Program-made: the position numbers and the translations under genes
DNA from: Cheiracanthium punctorium
Taxonomy: Eukaryota; Arthropoda; Arachnida; Araneae; Cheiracanthiidae
Assembly (NCBI GenBank): GCA_038373885.1
Contig: JAWZYV010001839.1
Span: 434,001-498,000, forward strand
DNA: 64,000 nt
Direction: 5' to 3'
Notes under the pieces: model-generated
What the model was told of the DNA's origin: nothing
The model's database searches: none
The model's input: the letters and a program-made list of their open reading frames with translations, nothing else
In this document: positions 35,042 through 42,691 of the stretch, piece after piece
Numbering within the stretch: position 1 is the first letter of the stretch
Layout of the letters: every line of letters begins with the position of its first letter

Positions 35042-35689
35042 GGATGCAAGCATTTTAAAAAGTGTCATTCCTGAATTAAATGGTTTATTCTGCTATTCGG
35101 ATAATTTAAAAAGGTATTTTTAATCTCGAATAGCTAACCTAATACAAAACAAATGGTAGCAGTGGGAATATGAAGAACTTTTCAGTTTTAAATATACCCC
35201 CGATTTTCGATTTTATGAGATAGTCTCAAAGTTGTAAGACTCATTCACATTATGTTAACAGAATCAGACGGAAAAGATAATTTTTAGTTAGAATATTTTC
35301 ACACGTTGACATTAACGAAATTCGCGAAATGTTTCAACGTAAGAACGCTTTACCTCATTTACACGGAGATTTTTCTAATTGAAATTCTTTAAAACTTAAA
35401 GGAACACGAAACTTTTGACAAATATTTAACTTTATCATCTTCAGGCGCTGATATCTTTAAAGAAGTGAATTTCCATCGGTTTTCCCATTTGGAGATCGGG
35501 TATACAGATTTAAGCATCTGTATTTTATAAATGTGGCATTTTTGAGAAAGTTATAATTGAGAATTTGCATAAGTTGTTAAAATTTAAAATTATTTTTCTT
35601 GCATTTCTACTTTGTAAGGAACATCTACATAAATTAAATTAGACTTTTGTCTGTACAGTACTTTTATTTAAAAAATTTTGCGATATTTA
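35042..35689. other. AT-rich target region of the gypsy insertion
   Basis: No gene recognised. The last four bases, TTTA (35686-35689), are the left copy of the gypsy element's target duplication. Confidence 0.5.
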
Positions 35690-35972
35690 TGTGGATAATA
35701 ATTAGTTCTGCTGTGGCAACACCACTGAACGAACTATAACTTCAACTCCCGCCAGTTGTTCCCCCGCCAAAGAACACTCTAGACGGAGAACGAGACTGGG
35801 CAGACGTGCGATGTTAAAAGAGCAGAATAGCTCTCTTGATGTTATTTTTATTTTTATTTCTACCTCTCAATGTTTTTAAATGTTAGTGTCGTCGTTGTAT
35901 TAAAGTTTCGTCTCATTAAATGTTTAAAAAGATTAACGTCTATTTAATTTGGAGCGCTAGCTCCATCCTACA
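35690..35972 (+). repeat. 5' LTR
   Basis: Starts TGTGGATAAT and ends CATCCTACA. Contains a hairpin-capable region near the start (GTTC..GTGG..CCAC..GAAC), an ATTAAA that could serve as polyadenylation signal, and a perfect short palindrome GGAGCGCTAGCTCC close to the 3' end. It carries the promoter for the genomic RNA by family analogy. Confidence 0.95.
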
Positions 35973-36750: not shown

Positions 36751-37197
36751 ATGTCTACTCTCAGTGATTACCCCAATATCGCAAAATCGTTAAAAATTGG
36801 TAGTACGAGTCAAATAAAGGTTTTACATCGCTTAATTTTTGGTACAGACGGCGATAGACAAAATCGCGCGAGATTACGCAAATTTACAGGTTTCCCACAG
36901 CCATTCGAGTTAGAAGAAACGAAACAAAAAGTACTTAAAGAGTTTTCACTTAAAGACCTAATTTCTATTTGCAATTTACTTCATTTAGAATTCTCAACTG
37001 ACCCAGATAAGTGTGCTAACACCATTCTTACGAGTCTTAATGATTTATCGTTATTAAAAGCAGATTATTCCGATCTTTCGGAAAGCGAAGTCAATGATTC
37101 ACATCCGGTTGACAGTTCATCTCAAACAAATAACGTCGTGGGTGAAAATAGTACTCCCTCCCCACCCACCCCTGACGCAAAAAGAATTTTCAGATAA
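36751..37197 (+). CDS. Gypsy ORF1: Gag N-terminal protein with DEK-like domain
   Basis: 148 residues; the ATG is the first in-frame start after the leader. Residues 23-99 resemble the N-terminal pseudo-SAP/SAP domain of the chromatin protein DEK in order and spacing: LHRLIFG (25-31), RKFTGFP (43-49), KVLKEF (60-65), LISICNLLHLE (70-80) and a final TILTSL (91-96). In DEK this domain binds DNA and chromatin. By inference it could bind nucleic acid or tether the particle to chromatin. Residues 100-148 are acidic, then Ser/Pro-rich and disordered. The frame overlaps ORF2 (frame 1 against frame 2; ORF2 is open from 37058), so a programmed shift, re-initiation, or an indel in this copy are the alternatives. 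Gag capsid and zinc knuckles are in ORF2. Confidence 0.85.
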   Translation: MSTLSDYPNIAKSLKIGSTSQIKVLHRLIFGTDGDRQNRARLRKFTGFPQPFELEETKQKVLKEFSLKDLISICNLLHLEFSTDPDKCANTILTSLNDLSLLKADYSDLSESEVNDSHPVDSSSQTNNVVGENSTPSPPTPDAKRIFR

Positions 37198-40100
37198 GCA
37201 ACAGACACAGATTCCTTTTAGTGAATCAGCTCAGAATTTATTGCCTTCAGTCGAAACTACGAGTTCCTCTTTCCAATTATTTAGTCTCAAAGACGTTGTT
37301 GATTTAATAAAACCTTTTTCGTCTCGCGATAATTATAGCATTGAGAATTTCATATCCGACGTTGAAGAAATTTTTTATTTGTACCAAATAAACAATCCAA
37401 TTCACCAAATTACTTTTGTTAGAAAATGTTTGACTGGTCCCGCTCAAACTTTAATTAGGTCTATTCGTGGAATCACAAATTGGGAACAATTGAAGCACCA
37501 TTTGCTAGAGGAATTTTCTGACAAAATTAACAGCATTCAGTTACATCAATTAATGGAATCTCGACGTATGAAACCGTTTGAAACCCTACAAGAATATTTC
37601 TTAGCTATGAGAGATTTGGCACACAAAGGATCTCTTGATGATCCCTCCCTGATTGAATATGTTATAAATGGAATTCCAGATTCATCACACAATAAAATTT
37701 TCCTTTACGGTTGTAAATCCATCCCAGAATTCAAGGAAAAATTAAAGATTTATGAAAAAATCTTTAACAGTTCTCAACATTTCAGACAAAATAATCAGAA
37801 AAAATTCGATGATACCAACCTTAATGTGAAACTCGACAATAAACGTAACCCAAATACACAACCAGTATGTTATTCTTGTGGCTTGAAGGGTCATAAAAGC
37901 AACCAATGTTTGAATAAGTCACATGGTAAACAATGCTATGGATGTAAAAATTTTGGTCATGTTCATGCTAATTGTCCCAAAAGTTCTCGAAATTCGAAAC
38001 CAAAACCTGAATCTCAAAAACCTACTCCTGATAAAACTGTAAATGTGCTATCTCCTCAAACTTCATCGAAAAATCCCATGCATGTTGACATTCAACTTGC
38101 AGGAATTCAATTGACAGCACTCTGTGACACTGGGTCACAAGCAACCCTTATTAATGAGAAAACACATCGAAGAATCGGTTCGCCACCATTGCATTCCAAC
38201 ACCATTCCCTTTTCAGGAATTGGCCGAAACGAAGTTCATAGCCTCGGGTTTTTCCAGGATTCCATCGAAATTCAAAAGATTACTTTACCTGCTAAAATAC
38301 ATGTTCTAAAAGATGACTTGATTCCTTTTGATGTGATTATCGGAAGCGACTTTTTGCAGCAAACCCAATTTACATTTGATAAAGACGGTATTCATTTATG
38401 CGGTACCCTTGATGATAATATTTTCGTTAATATTGCTAATATTTCTAATGACCAAACTTTTCCATTTGATCTTTCACACATTTTGAATTCTGAAATTCGT
38501 GAGGAAGTTCAAAATATCGTTACTTCCTACAAACCCCATAAAGTTAAAGACACTGAAATTCAGATGACTATTTTATTACAAGATGAAATACCCGTAGCAC
38601 AACGCTCTCGAAGACTCCCTTTTGCTGAACAGAAAATTGTGGAAAAACAAATTCAAGATTGGTTAAATGATGGAATTATTAAACAAAGTTGCTCTGATTA
38701 CGCCGCCCCGATTGTTCTATGTAAGAAAAAAACTGGAGATTACAGACTTTGTGTTGATTACCGCAGGCTTAATAGAAAAATGATAAAAGATAAATTTCCC
38801 TTACCACTCATAGAAGAAGCCTTAGATAAACTTGGAACATCTCGGGTTTTCACTACACTTGACCTTAAAAATGGTTTCTTTCATGTACCTATGGACCCTA
38901 ACAGCACTAAATATACTTCTTTCGTAACTCATGAAGGCCAGTACGAATTTTTACGAGTTCCATTTGGATTATCCAACAGCCCTAGTGTTTTTCAACGATA
39001 TGTTTATACAGTTTTTAGAGATCTCATTCGCGATAACATTCTTATTGTTTACATGGACGATCTTCTCATACCATCTAATGACGAGGTCGAAGGCCTACAA
39101 AAATTGCGCCTAGTTCTCCAAACAGCTGCAGATTATGGCCTCGAATTGAACTTAAAAAAGTGCCAATTTTTACAACGAAAGATAGAATTCCTTGGTTATA
39201 TTATCGAAAACGGAGTAGTTAAACCGTCACTTACCAAGACACAGGCAGTTCAAAAATTCCCACAACCTCAAAACCCTAAACAAGTTCAAAGTTTTCTTGG
39301 ACTAACAAGTTACTTTAGAAAGTTTATTCCAAATTATGCGCTGATTGCTAGACCATTAAGTGACCTCCTTCGGGATAATGCAGAATTTAATTTTGGACCT
39401 GAACAAATAGCAGCTTTTCAACACCTGAAAAACATTCTTTCACAAAACCCAGTTCTTCATGTTTTTCAACAAGGATACCCATTAGAACTCCACACTGATG
39501 CAAGCTCCTTAGGTTTTGGCGCTGTGCTCTTACAAAAATCAGATGATGGACAGTTTCATCCTATTCATTATTTTAGCCGTAAAACTACAGTTCAACAAGA
39601 AAAATATCACAGTTACGAACTGGAAGTTCTCGCCGTCGTTGAGGCGCTAAAGAAATTTCGCACCTACTTGCTAGGTACAAAATTTAAAATTATCACAGAT
39701 TGCGATGCTTTCCAAAAAACGATGCACAAAAAAGATCTACCAGCTAAAATTGCTCGATGGGCATTGATGTTAGAGGACTTTGATTATGAAGTTTGTCATC
39801 GATCCGGTAGACAGATGAAACATGTTGACGCTTTAAGTCGTAACCCCATTCTTGTTATTACCACAAATGATATCACGCAAAAGGTGAAAAATGCCCAAGA
39901 TCAAGATGAATTTATAACTCAAATTAAATCTATGCTCGAATCTACACCTTCCGATGAATATTTGGTTAAAAACGGCATTCTTTATAAACTTCATAAGGAT
40001 ACCGAACTTTTAGTAGTCCCACAAATGATGCAGAAAGAAATCGTGCTAAACGCCCATTCACAAGGTCATTTTGCCTCACAAAAAACCGAATCAATTGTTT

Positions 40101-41068
40101 CTCGTGAATTTTACATCCCTCAACTTAAGAAATTGGTTCAAGAAATTATTTCAAATTGTATTCCTTGCATTCTCTCCTCGCGAAAATCTGGAAAACAAGA
40201 AGGATTGCTTCACCCAATTCCAAAAGGTGATGCACCTCTTGAATGTTACCATTGCGACTTTTTAGGACCTTTACCATCGACAAAAAAATGTTATAAATAT
40301 ATTTTTACAGTAATTGATGCCTTTTCGAAATTTATATGGATCTATCCCGTGAAGTCAACCTCTACGAAAGATGCCTTGGACAAACTATCCTTGCAACAAA
40401 CTACATTTGGCAACCCTTCAAAAATCATCACAGACAAAGGTAGCGCATTCACATCTTCAGAATTTCAAAGCTACTGCCAGGAACAGTATATTGAACACAT
40501 TTCAATTACGACAGGTGTACCACGTGGAAACGGTCAGGTTGAACGCATTCATGGCACAATTATCCCCGTTTTAACTAAGTTAGCTATAGATGAACCTGAC
40601 AAATGGTTTAAATACGTCCCGCGATTGCAACGTATCTTAAATAGTACCACCACACGCAGTACAAAATTCACACCTTTCGAACTTTTAATTGGTGTTCAAA
40701 TGAAACAACAGGAGGACCTACAGATTAAACAACTTCTTGACGAGGAACACCAGCAAAGAATTATTGATGACAAAGAAACGTTACGTATCGAAGCTAAACG
40801 AAATATCCTCCGTTTACAGGAAGAAAATATACGACAGTATAACAAACGACGTAAACCAGCCTGTAAATACAAGATTGGTGACAAAGTGGCAATACAACGA
40901 ACTCAGTTTGGAACTGGACTAAAGCTGCGACCCAAGTTCTTCGGACCCTATGAGATCACAAAAATCAACCCCAACGATCGTTACGAAGTTCGGAAGTTAG
41001 GACATCATGAAGGTCCCACCATAACGTCAACTGCAGCAGATAAAATGAAACAGTGGTGCAGCAACTGA
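37094..41068 (+). CDS. Gypsy ORF2: Gag capsid plus Pol polyprotein
   Basis: 1,324 codons, uninterrupted. In order: a retrotransposon capsid domain (about 60-225); two CCHC knuckles (CYSCGLKGH at 259, CYGCKNFGH at 281); aspartic protease with DTG at 345; reverse transcriptase with YMDD at 653; RNase H starting near HTDAS at 800; and integrase with the H-H-C-C zinc site (988, 992, 1022, 1025) and catalytic D1055, D1114, E1150 (D-x35-E). A GPYEI motif near the C-terminus is the GPY/F module. The enzymes copy the RNA to DNA and insert it into chromosomes. All catalytic residues I can place are present. No chromodomain follows. The true N-terminus is uncertain because the ATG at 37094 lies within ORF1; the first 30 codons are probably only overlap. 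Confidence 0.95.
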   Translation: MIHIRLTVHLKQITSWVKIVLPPHPPLTQKEFSDKQQTQIPFSESAQNLLPSVETTSSSFQLFSLKDVVDLIKPFSSRDNYSIENFISDVEEIFYLYQINNPIHQITFVRKCLTGPAQTLIRSIRGITNWEQLKHHLLEEFSDKINSIQLHQLMESRRMKPFETLQEYFLAMRDLAHKGSLDDPSLIEYVINGIPDSSHNKIFLYGCKSIPEFKEKLKIYEKIFNSSQHFRQNNQKKFDDTNLNVKLDNKRNPNTQPVCYSCGLKGHKSNQCLNKSHGKQCYGCKNFGHVHANCPKSSRNSKPKPESQKPTPDKTVNVLSPQTSSKNPMHVDIQLAGIQLTALCDTGSQATLINEKTHRRIGSPPLHSNTIPFSGIGRNEVHSLGFFQDSIEIQKITLPAKIHVLKDDLIPFDVIIGSDFLQQTQFTFDKDGIHLCGTLDDNIFVNIANISNDQTFPFDLSHILNSEIREEVQNIVTSYKPHKVKDTEIQMTILLQDEIPVAQRSRRLPFAEQKIVEKQIQDWLNDGIIKQSCSDYAAPIVLCKKKTGDYRLCVDYRRLNRKMIKDKFPLPLIEEALDKLGTSRVFTTLDLKNGFFHVPMDPNSTKYTSFVTHEGQYEFLRVPFGLSNSPSVFQRYVYTVFRDLIRDNILIVYMDDLLIPSNDEVEGLQKLRLVLQTAADYGLELNLKKCQFLQRKIEFLGYIIENGVVKPSLTKTQAVQKFPQPQNPKQVQSFLGLTSYFRKFIPNYALIARPLSDLLRDNAEFNFGPEQIAAFQHLKNILSQNPVLHVFQQGYPLELHTDASSLGFGAVLLQKSDDGQFHPIHYFSRKTTVQQEKYHSYELEVLAVVEALKKFRTYLLGTKFKIITDCDAFQKTMHKKDLPAKIARWALMLEDFDYEVCHRSGRQMKHVDALSRNPILVITTNDITQKVKNAQDQDEFITQIKSMLESTPSDEYLVKNGILYKLHKDTELLVVPQMMQKEIVLNAHSQGHFASQKTESIVSREFYIPQLKKLVQEIISNCIPCILSSRKSGKQEGLLHPIPKGDAPLECYHCDFLGPLPSTKKCYKYIFTVIDAFSKFIWIYPVKSTSTKDALDKLSLQQTTFGNPSKIITDKGSAFTSSEFQSYCQEQYIEHISITTGVPRGNGQVERIHGTIIPVLTKLAIDEPDKWFKYVPRLQRILNSTTTRSTKFTPFELLIGVQMKQQEDLQIKQLLDEEHQQRIIDDKETLRIEAKRNILRLQEENIRQYNKRRKPACKYKIGDKVAIQRTQFGTGLKLRPKFFGPYEITKINPNDRYEVRKLGHHEGPTITSTAADKMKQWCSN

Positions 41069-41197: not shown

Positions 41198-41480
41198 TGT
41201 GGATAATAATTAGTTCTGCTGTGGCAACACCACTGAACGAACTATAACTTCAACTCCCGCCAGTTGTTCCCCCGCCAAAGAACACTCTAGACGGAGAACG
41301 AGACTGGGCAGACGTGCGATGTTAAAAGAGCAGAATAGCTCTCTTGATGTTATTTTTATTTTTATTTCTACCTCTCAATGTTTTTAAATGTTAGTGTCGT
41401 CGTTGTATTAAAGTTTCGTCTCATTAAATGTTTAAAAAGATTAACGTCTATTTAATTTGGAGCGCTAGCTCCATCCTACA
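41198..41480 (+). repeat. 3' LTR
   Basis: 283 bp, identical by eye to 35690-35972. Followed by TTTA, the right copy of the target duplication. Confidence 0.95.
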
Positions 41481-41803
41481 TTTATCAGTTTCACGCACCC
41501 GGGAACCCAGTACGACCGATAAAAAAATGTTGGTCTCTCTCTCGATCTGCCATTCTGTGCGTGAGGCTTTTTTTCCGCATCATGTAAAAATGACTGAAGC
41601 GAATGAAATGAAATTTGGTGACATGATAGGGGGTCACTCAACATAAGCTATAGGCGTTCAATTTCTTAAACAATTTTGATTAGATTTTGAGATTTTGCGA
41701 AAATCGTTTCAAAATGCGTAAATTATTGTTCGCGCATCTCGTAATAACGACTAAAGCGAAAGATGTAAAATTTGATGACATAATAGTTGAGTATGCAACT
41801 TAA

Positions 41804-42247
41804 CCCTTTATAAGGCAGTGGTAAAATACTTACCCCCTACGGTCTAGTATATACAGAAATCAATTGTCATTAGTGAATTTTCTGATTTTTGTTCAGTTAT
41901 ATTGGATGTATATTTTTTACATACATCTAGATTCTATATTTGGCTTATGAACTTTTCTTTCATTCGCAATTTTAAAGAAAGCTCGAATAATTATTCGAAA
42001 ATCGCTTTTAATTATATATTTTTGCGTTTGATTCCGTGTACAAGCAGAAGGTAGTTTTCAGACTTTGATTTTGTGTATAATGAATGTAGTCTCCTGCAAA
42101 ATTTCTACGTTTGTTTAATACTTGTTTCTCCAATTTTCACGTAGGATATTACAGTAGAGGGAAAATATATGAATTAATTCTAAAAAATGGGCCAGAAAAA
42201 TTCCAAGTAATTTCGACTCTCTGCACATACCCTCGCCTTATAAAGGG
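41804..42247. mobile_element. piggyBac-like MITE in the satellite
   Basis: Flanked by TTAA on both sides (41800-41803, 42248-42251). Inverted ends CCCTTTATAAGGC. 444 bp without a transposase frame. It is a different family from the foldback elements at 34553 and 59092. Confidence 0.9.
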
Positions 42248-42691
42248 TTAAACTACAGTCGTCGAATTTTTGTGAAAATTTTGATAGGATTCTGGGATTT
42301 TGTGAAAAACTATTCAAAAATGCGCAAATCTTTGTTCACGCTTCACGCAATAACGACTTAAGTGAATAAAACGAAATTAAGTAATCTGATCGTGGATAAC
42401 TTTAGCAGTCGAATATTTTAAAAATTTGGATTGGAGTTTGAGATTTTGTAAAAATTTATTTGATTGTGTAAATAGTTGTTTGTCTATCACGTATAAACCA
42501 CTGAAGCGAATGAAATAAATTTTAGCATCATCATAGGTGGTCACATAAAATATAATCGTCGAATTATTTGAAAATTTCTTATAGATTTTGAGATTTTTTT
42601 AAAATTGAGTAAATGATAGTTCCATTCCTGAAAAATGGCAATGGAATAGAATGAAATTTGGAATTATGGTTGGTGGCAAGTTAGTTTAAGC

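Follow-up and report, generated by a model that had tools for sequence, protein, structure and literature searches.

In the spider Cheiracanthium punctorium, we found a Ty3/gypsy retrotransposon whose Gag protein opens with a domain that is almost certainly homologous to the pseudo-SAP/SAP region of the cellular nucleosome-binding protein DEK. The lineage, seen so far in spiders and in further contigs, would carry a Gag built of the DEK domain, a linker predicted to be disordered, the capsid and zinc knuckles. The domain was probably captured from a cellular DEK transcript and may tether the element to chromatin; taken as a whole, this explanation (DEK-derived Gag domain, transcript capture, chromatin tether) has in our view an even chance of being right. 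The window analysed here is a stretch of 64,000 nucleotides of contig JAWZYV010001839.1, and all coordinates refer to it.

The element in the window lies on the + strand between two copies of a 4 bp target-site duplication, TTTA (35686..35689 and 41481..41484), and is bounded by two identical LTRs of 283 bp (35690..35972, TG...CA, and 41198..41480). In this copy, a first frame, ORF1 (36751..37197), encodes 148 aa of the N-terminal part of Gag and ends early; ORF2, from the ORF listing (37094..41068, 1324 aa), encodes the remaining Gag and Pol. The Pfam scan of ORF2, run on three pieces, placed the capsid at 37313..37807 (Retrotrans_gag above its cut-off, Ty3_capsid just below with 28.8 bits for a cut-off of 29.1) and the better of two CCHC zinc knuckle stretches at 37865..37909, with a score below the Pfam cut-off. 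Above the cut-off were the aspartic protease (38084..38362), the reverse transcriptase (38723..39205), RNase H (39479..39781) and the integrase, with its H2C2 zinc-binding domain (40016..40177) and its core (40232..40510), all on the + strand. The order of these domains, from capsid and zinc knuckles through protease, reverse transcriptase and RNase H to integrase, is the Ty3/gypsy arrangement, and by its LTRs and its PR-RT-RH-INT order the element is a Ty3/gypsy LTR retrotransposon (Metaviridae). The original prediction had held that this element has no chromodomain; indeed, none was listed for the polyprotein pieces, even with E values up to 10 allowed for the final 424 aa, where the HMMER filters discard most hits weaker than 0.1. 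Two subgroup assignments were rejected: chromovirus, the integrase C-terminus having no listed chromodomain, and errantivirus-type (env-bearing) gypsy, there being no env ORF between the end of pol (ORF2 end, 41068) and the start of the 3' LTR (41198). Degenerate direct repeats, 61-71 nt long and spaced at about 145 and 606, also lie in the window just past the 3' LTR (41579-42552).

Copies are numerous in the 2.53 Gb genome: all 150 loci scored, from 532 candidates and with several families pooled, are matches. Among the first 20 rows of these 150, 15 have the ORF1 stretch at the start of a single open Gag-Pol frame of 1443 aa; ORF1 is thus the Gag N-terminus of a one-frame Gag-Pol, and it looks like a separate ORF in the window because the frame is broken in that copy. 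The domain was therefore rightly placed at the front of a gypsy Gag, but ORF1 is not a protein preceding Gag: in open-frame copies, it is the N-terminal domain of Gag itself. The frame is interrupted soon downstream of the domain in the window copy and in loci L002 and L003. The window copy and L002 have the same early end of the first frame, while L003, C6047 and C9420 share a different short frame of 189 aa; these shared breaks denote either related broken copies or an error-prone stretch. When the LTR pairs of 10 further copies were compared, six were identical, three differed slightly (282/289, 282/283 and 287/289) and, in one, the 5' LTR was not recovered; identical or near-identical pairs indicate that the family was active recently. 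As for the target sites, nine of 11 copies (the window copy and copies among L054-L073) have matching 4-bp duplications, all of the form TNNA (TTTA, TATA, TGTA, TAGA, TAAA) and several of them situated in TA repeats; the other two copies are unreadable on the 5' side.

The original prediction rested on a DEK-like signature read in residues 23-99 of ORF1. The resemblance goes far beyond chance, as judged by profiles and shuffles, but its extent is closer to residues 1-104 (36751..37062, + strand), delimited by profile, structural model and superposition. With a single sequence as query, the best PDB sequence match of phmmer was already DEK (2jx3, E 0.0017). A HMMER profile of 11 sequences, drawn from five families of this genome, gave a significant match to DEK over profile positions 2-99 (E 1.6e-11), with three DEK entries at 1.6e-11 and 3.3e-10 and the next entry at 0.85. 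DEK also ranked first (2.4e-9, one DEK chain being at 0.0036) with a wider alignment that took in relatives from elsewhere and included capsid and zinc knuckles. Such a profile match could arise fortuitously or by convergence between small helical domains, and it is true that Pfam lists no family above its cut-off on the domain. Single Gag N-termini matched host DEK at E <0.001 in 14 of 20 cases, the highest scores against DEK belonging to members of family F3; six (L015, L016, P0006, P0007, P0026 and P0034) did not reach this threshold, families F6 and F7, compared separately, did, and single-sequence comparison with DEK gives no significant match for F4-like sequences and P0034. The real profile scores 47.2 bits against human DEK and 48.5 bits against host DEK, and the maxima of 200 column-shuffled profiles were 4.4 and 6.3 bits, respectively; a fortuitous or convergent resemblance is exceedingly improbable. 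The predicted structure of the domain superposes on DEK over nearly its full length with the same helix order, which points to the DEK fold.

We also located the DEK gene of the host, by a DEK_C match and three SAP-region exons on a contig of the same assembly (C8067), and searched the genome back with its joined domain exons. Among the 150 places scored of 192 candidates, three are the host DEK exons and 147 lie elsewhere; 14 of these 147 were fetched, and all 14 match the Gag-domain profile, 13 more are loci already known (among L009-L028), and the other 120 are score matches alone. Starting from host DEK, this search recovers families F2, F3, F5, F6 and F7, the last two of which came to light solely in this way; F1, the window's own family, and F4 are absent among the 150 scored places of 192 candidates. 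Where the domain had been said to be either acquired or convergent, common descent is supported over convergence by the profile match, the predicted fold and the recovery of five of the seven families from the host sequence. Introns interrupt the domain in the host gene but not in the element copies, which is why we favour an origin from a cellular DEK transcript.

In this genome, the domain occurs in seven sequence families (F1-F7, grouped by eye). In F6 (L124-L130, L135), the capsid that follows the DEK-type domain bears only a remote resemblance to the capsids of the other families (profile E 0.0003); some copies have frames of 1566-1623 aa, and no zinc knuckle is listed in the scanned 429-aa piece. 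This could reflect transfer of the domain from one element to another, or divergence of the F6 capsid. The search beyond this genome found domain-bearing Gag relatives in Trichonephila clavipes, T. inaurata madagascariensis, Araneus ventricosus and Nephila pilipes, as well as in further contigs; among the matches listed, relatives numbered 29 proteins of 1499 candidates, 4 of 282, and 28 of 7999 scored. None of the 29 relative proteins among the matches listed has a precomputed Pfam domain, and two weak relatives, P0049 and P0052, are without the front part of the domain. In P0034, a Gag with the domain, the last third is acidic, lysine-rich and unlike Pol; it is perhaps a chimeric assembly or a fusion.

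In pairwise comparisons of 10 Gags (45 pairs), identity averages 42% in the domain and 43-44% in the capsid; the two covary (Mantel r 0.85, 0 of 5000 permutations; Spearman 0.49). The variable linker between them (37063..37312, + strand), inside which the frame of the window copy breaks, is marked by low pLDDT past residue 106 and by low inter-family identity, below 31% in 43 of the 45 Gag pairs. Among five families, third codon positions diverge further than second positions in all 10 pairs, and further than first positions in nine of the 10, the remaining pair being a tie. On these sequence comparisons, the domain is inherited with Gag and kept by selection.

What the domain does has to be read from its residues. 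In human DEK-nucleosome structures, as set out in the part of PMC12263440 drawn on here, the SAP domain sits on the dyad, where R107, K111, R116 and K144 contact DNA; K124/K125 contact one linker DNA and R153/K158/R168 the other, and R58 of the upstream arm binds the acidic patch. We mapped these positions by sequence alignment on 16 Gag representatives, from the seven families here and nine from elsewhere. Of the dyad contacts, R107 is basic in 14/16, K111 in 11/16, R116 in 1/16 and K144 in 2/16, the neighbours K143 and K145 being basic in 12/16 and 14/16; at the first linker DNA, K124 is basic in 16/16 and K125 in 5/16; the contacts with the second linker DNA are not retained (R153 basic in 2/16, K158 and R168 in 0/16). 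From the alignment, one part of the DNA-contact surface of DEK persists and another part is lost. Net charge ranges from -4 to +3 in 14 Gag sequences, vs +8 for host DEK and +10 for human DEK. The acidic-patch arm (HBR, with R58) is missing ahead of the domain, the Gag Met falling at about DEK residue 85, and DEK_C was not listed in P0001 or in the three ORF2 pieces. Helix 3 has more arginines in the Gag domain than in human DEK: its Arg-rich segment, residues 36-43 (R36, R39, R41, R43; 36856..36879, + strand), was delimited by conservation and by the model, where the helix spans 38-43. R36, R39 and R43 (window numbering) are basic in 16/16 representatives; in a 21-row set with several members per family, R39 is basic in 21/21, R36 in 19/21 and R43 in 18/21, so that the non-basic rows of R36 and R43 count against strict conservation of this helix.

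We infer from these residues that helix 3 (R36, R39, R43) and K23/K58/K60 would bring Gag carried on the capsid or the pre-integration complex into contact with dyad or linker DNA of the nucleosome and would keep the complex on chromatin ahead of integration, an end that foamy virus Gag and MLV p12 reach by a different route. That the domain works as a chromatin tether with changed geometry is close to an even call. Counted against it are the lost contact residues, the reduced net charge, the missing acidic-patch arm and the mild effect in DEK of K124E;K125E, which alone reduces binding only somewhat (same part of PMC12263440).

The near-zero net charge and the loss of one DNA-binding face would suit a matrix-like or RNA-binding part of Gag, where the DEK fold would have been reused to assemble particles, to bring Gags into contact or to capture the genomic RNA, without any role on chromatin. 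The domain does occupy the matrix position, the SAP domains of DEK contact each other in the two-DEK nucleosome complex (in the part of PMC12263440 used here), and an Arg-rich helix 3 would fit RNA as well as DNA. We nevertheless hold this to be rather unlikely, as the R107 and K124 positions remain basic and as other Ty3-type gag loci of this genome do without the domain: none of 50 has it at E <1e-3 (best 0.0066), which argues that assembly in general does not need it. These 50 were taken from 150 scored and comprise the top 30 PF19259 loci plus 20 lower-ranking ones chosen for variety; as a positive control, all 20 domain-bearing loci (L009-L028) were detected at E <1e-3. In the control gags with a visible start, among the rows printed, the start lies close upstream of the capsid. 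Alternatively, a domain that has retained its predicted fold while its DNA contacts thinned might act as a mimic, competing with or recruiting host DEK or its partners and altering silencing (H3K27me3 chromatin) instead of anchoring the element. According to the same part of PMC12263440, DEK and H3K27me3 colocalise, and PRC2 is stimulated by DEK in vitro; but a domain fused to Gag is produced along with the particle rather than as a free-standing factor, and we regard such mimicry as quite improbable.

Coming back to the tether, the Gag domain resembles the N-terminal domain of DEK (PDB 2jx3; nucleosome complexes 8kcy, 8kd1, 9l1x and 9l22) in sequence profile, helix order, near full-length superposition of the model, and basic residues at the R107 and K124 positions; unlike DEK, it forms the N-terminus of a retrotransposon Gag, with no HBR arm before and no DEK_C after, without the second linker-DNA contacts and with a charge near neutral. 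The element shares with other Ty3/gypsy elements (Metaviridae) its LTRs, capsid, zinc knuckles and PR-RT-RH-INT order, and differs by an extra DEK-type domain ahead of the capsid, missing from the other gags sampled here. Chromoviruses are LTR retrotransposons with a chromodomain in the integrase; they, too, have a domain of host chromatin-protein type, but it is a different domain in a different part of the polyprotein, and it was not listed in the window element. In MLV p12, the C-terminal region binds histones, and no DEK fold is known there. This Gag protein joins the capsid-containing complex to chromatin (part of PMC6021111), which is the link proposed here by analogy. Prototype foamy virus Gag likewise bears a chromatin-binding sequence that tethers to nucleosomes (part of PMC12125541), as would the domain here; it does so by an arginine-anchor motif on the acidic patch, vs a folded host-type domain in the spider element. 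Tentatively, at somewhat less than even probability, these elements would have captured the nucleosome-dyad module of DEK into the matrix position of Gag, and its remodelled, helix 3-centred DNA face would anchor capsids or pre-integration complexes to chromatin; such a module would be to Gag what the chromodomain is to integrase.

No earlier report of a DEK domain in a retrotransposon Gag was found in the open-licence literature, among the matches listed; PMC5408684 makes no mention of DEK, and PMC12460157 mentions it once, as an expressed gene. The presence in Gag of an entire folded domain from a nucleosome-binding host protein unites the chromatin modules of integrases with the Gag tethers of retroviruses, and the way in which particles of this kind reach chromatin becomes open to experiment. 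The element families further constitute an independent evolutionary record of the residues that DEK requires, and the domain profile may help name spider proteins that are at present uncharacterized.
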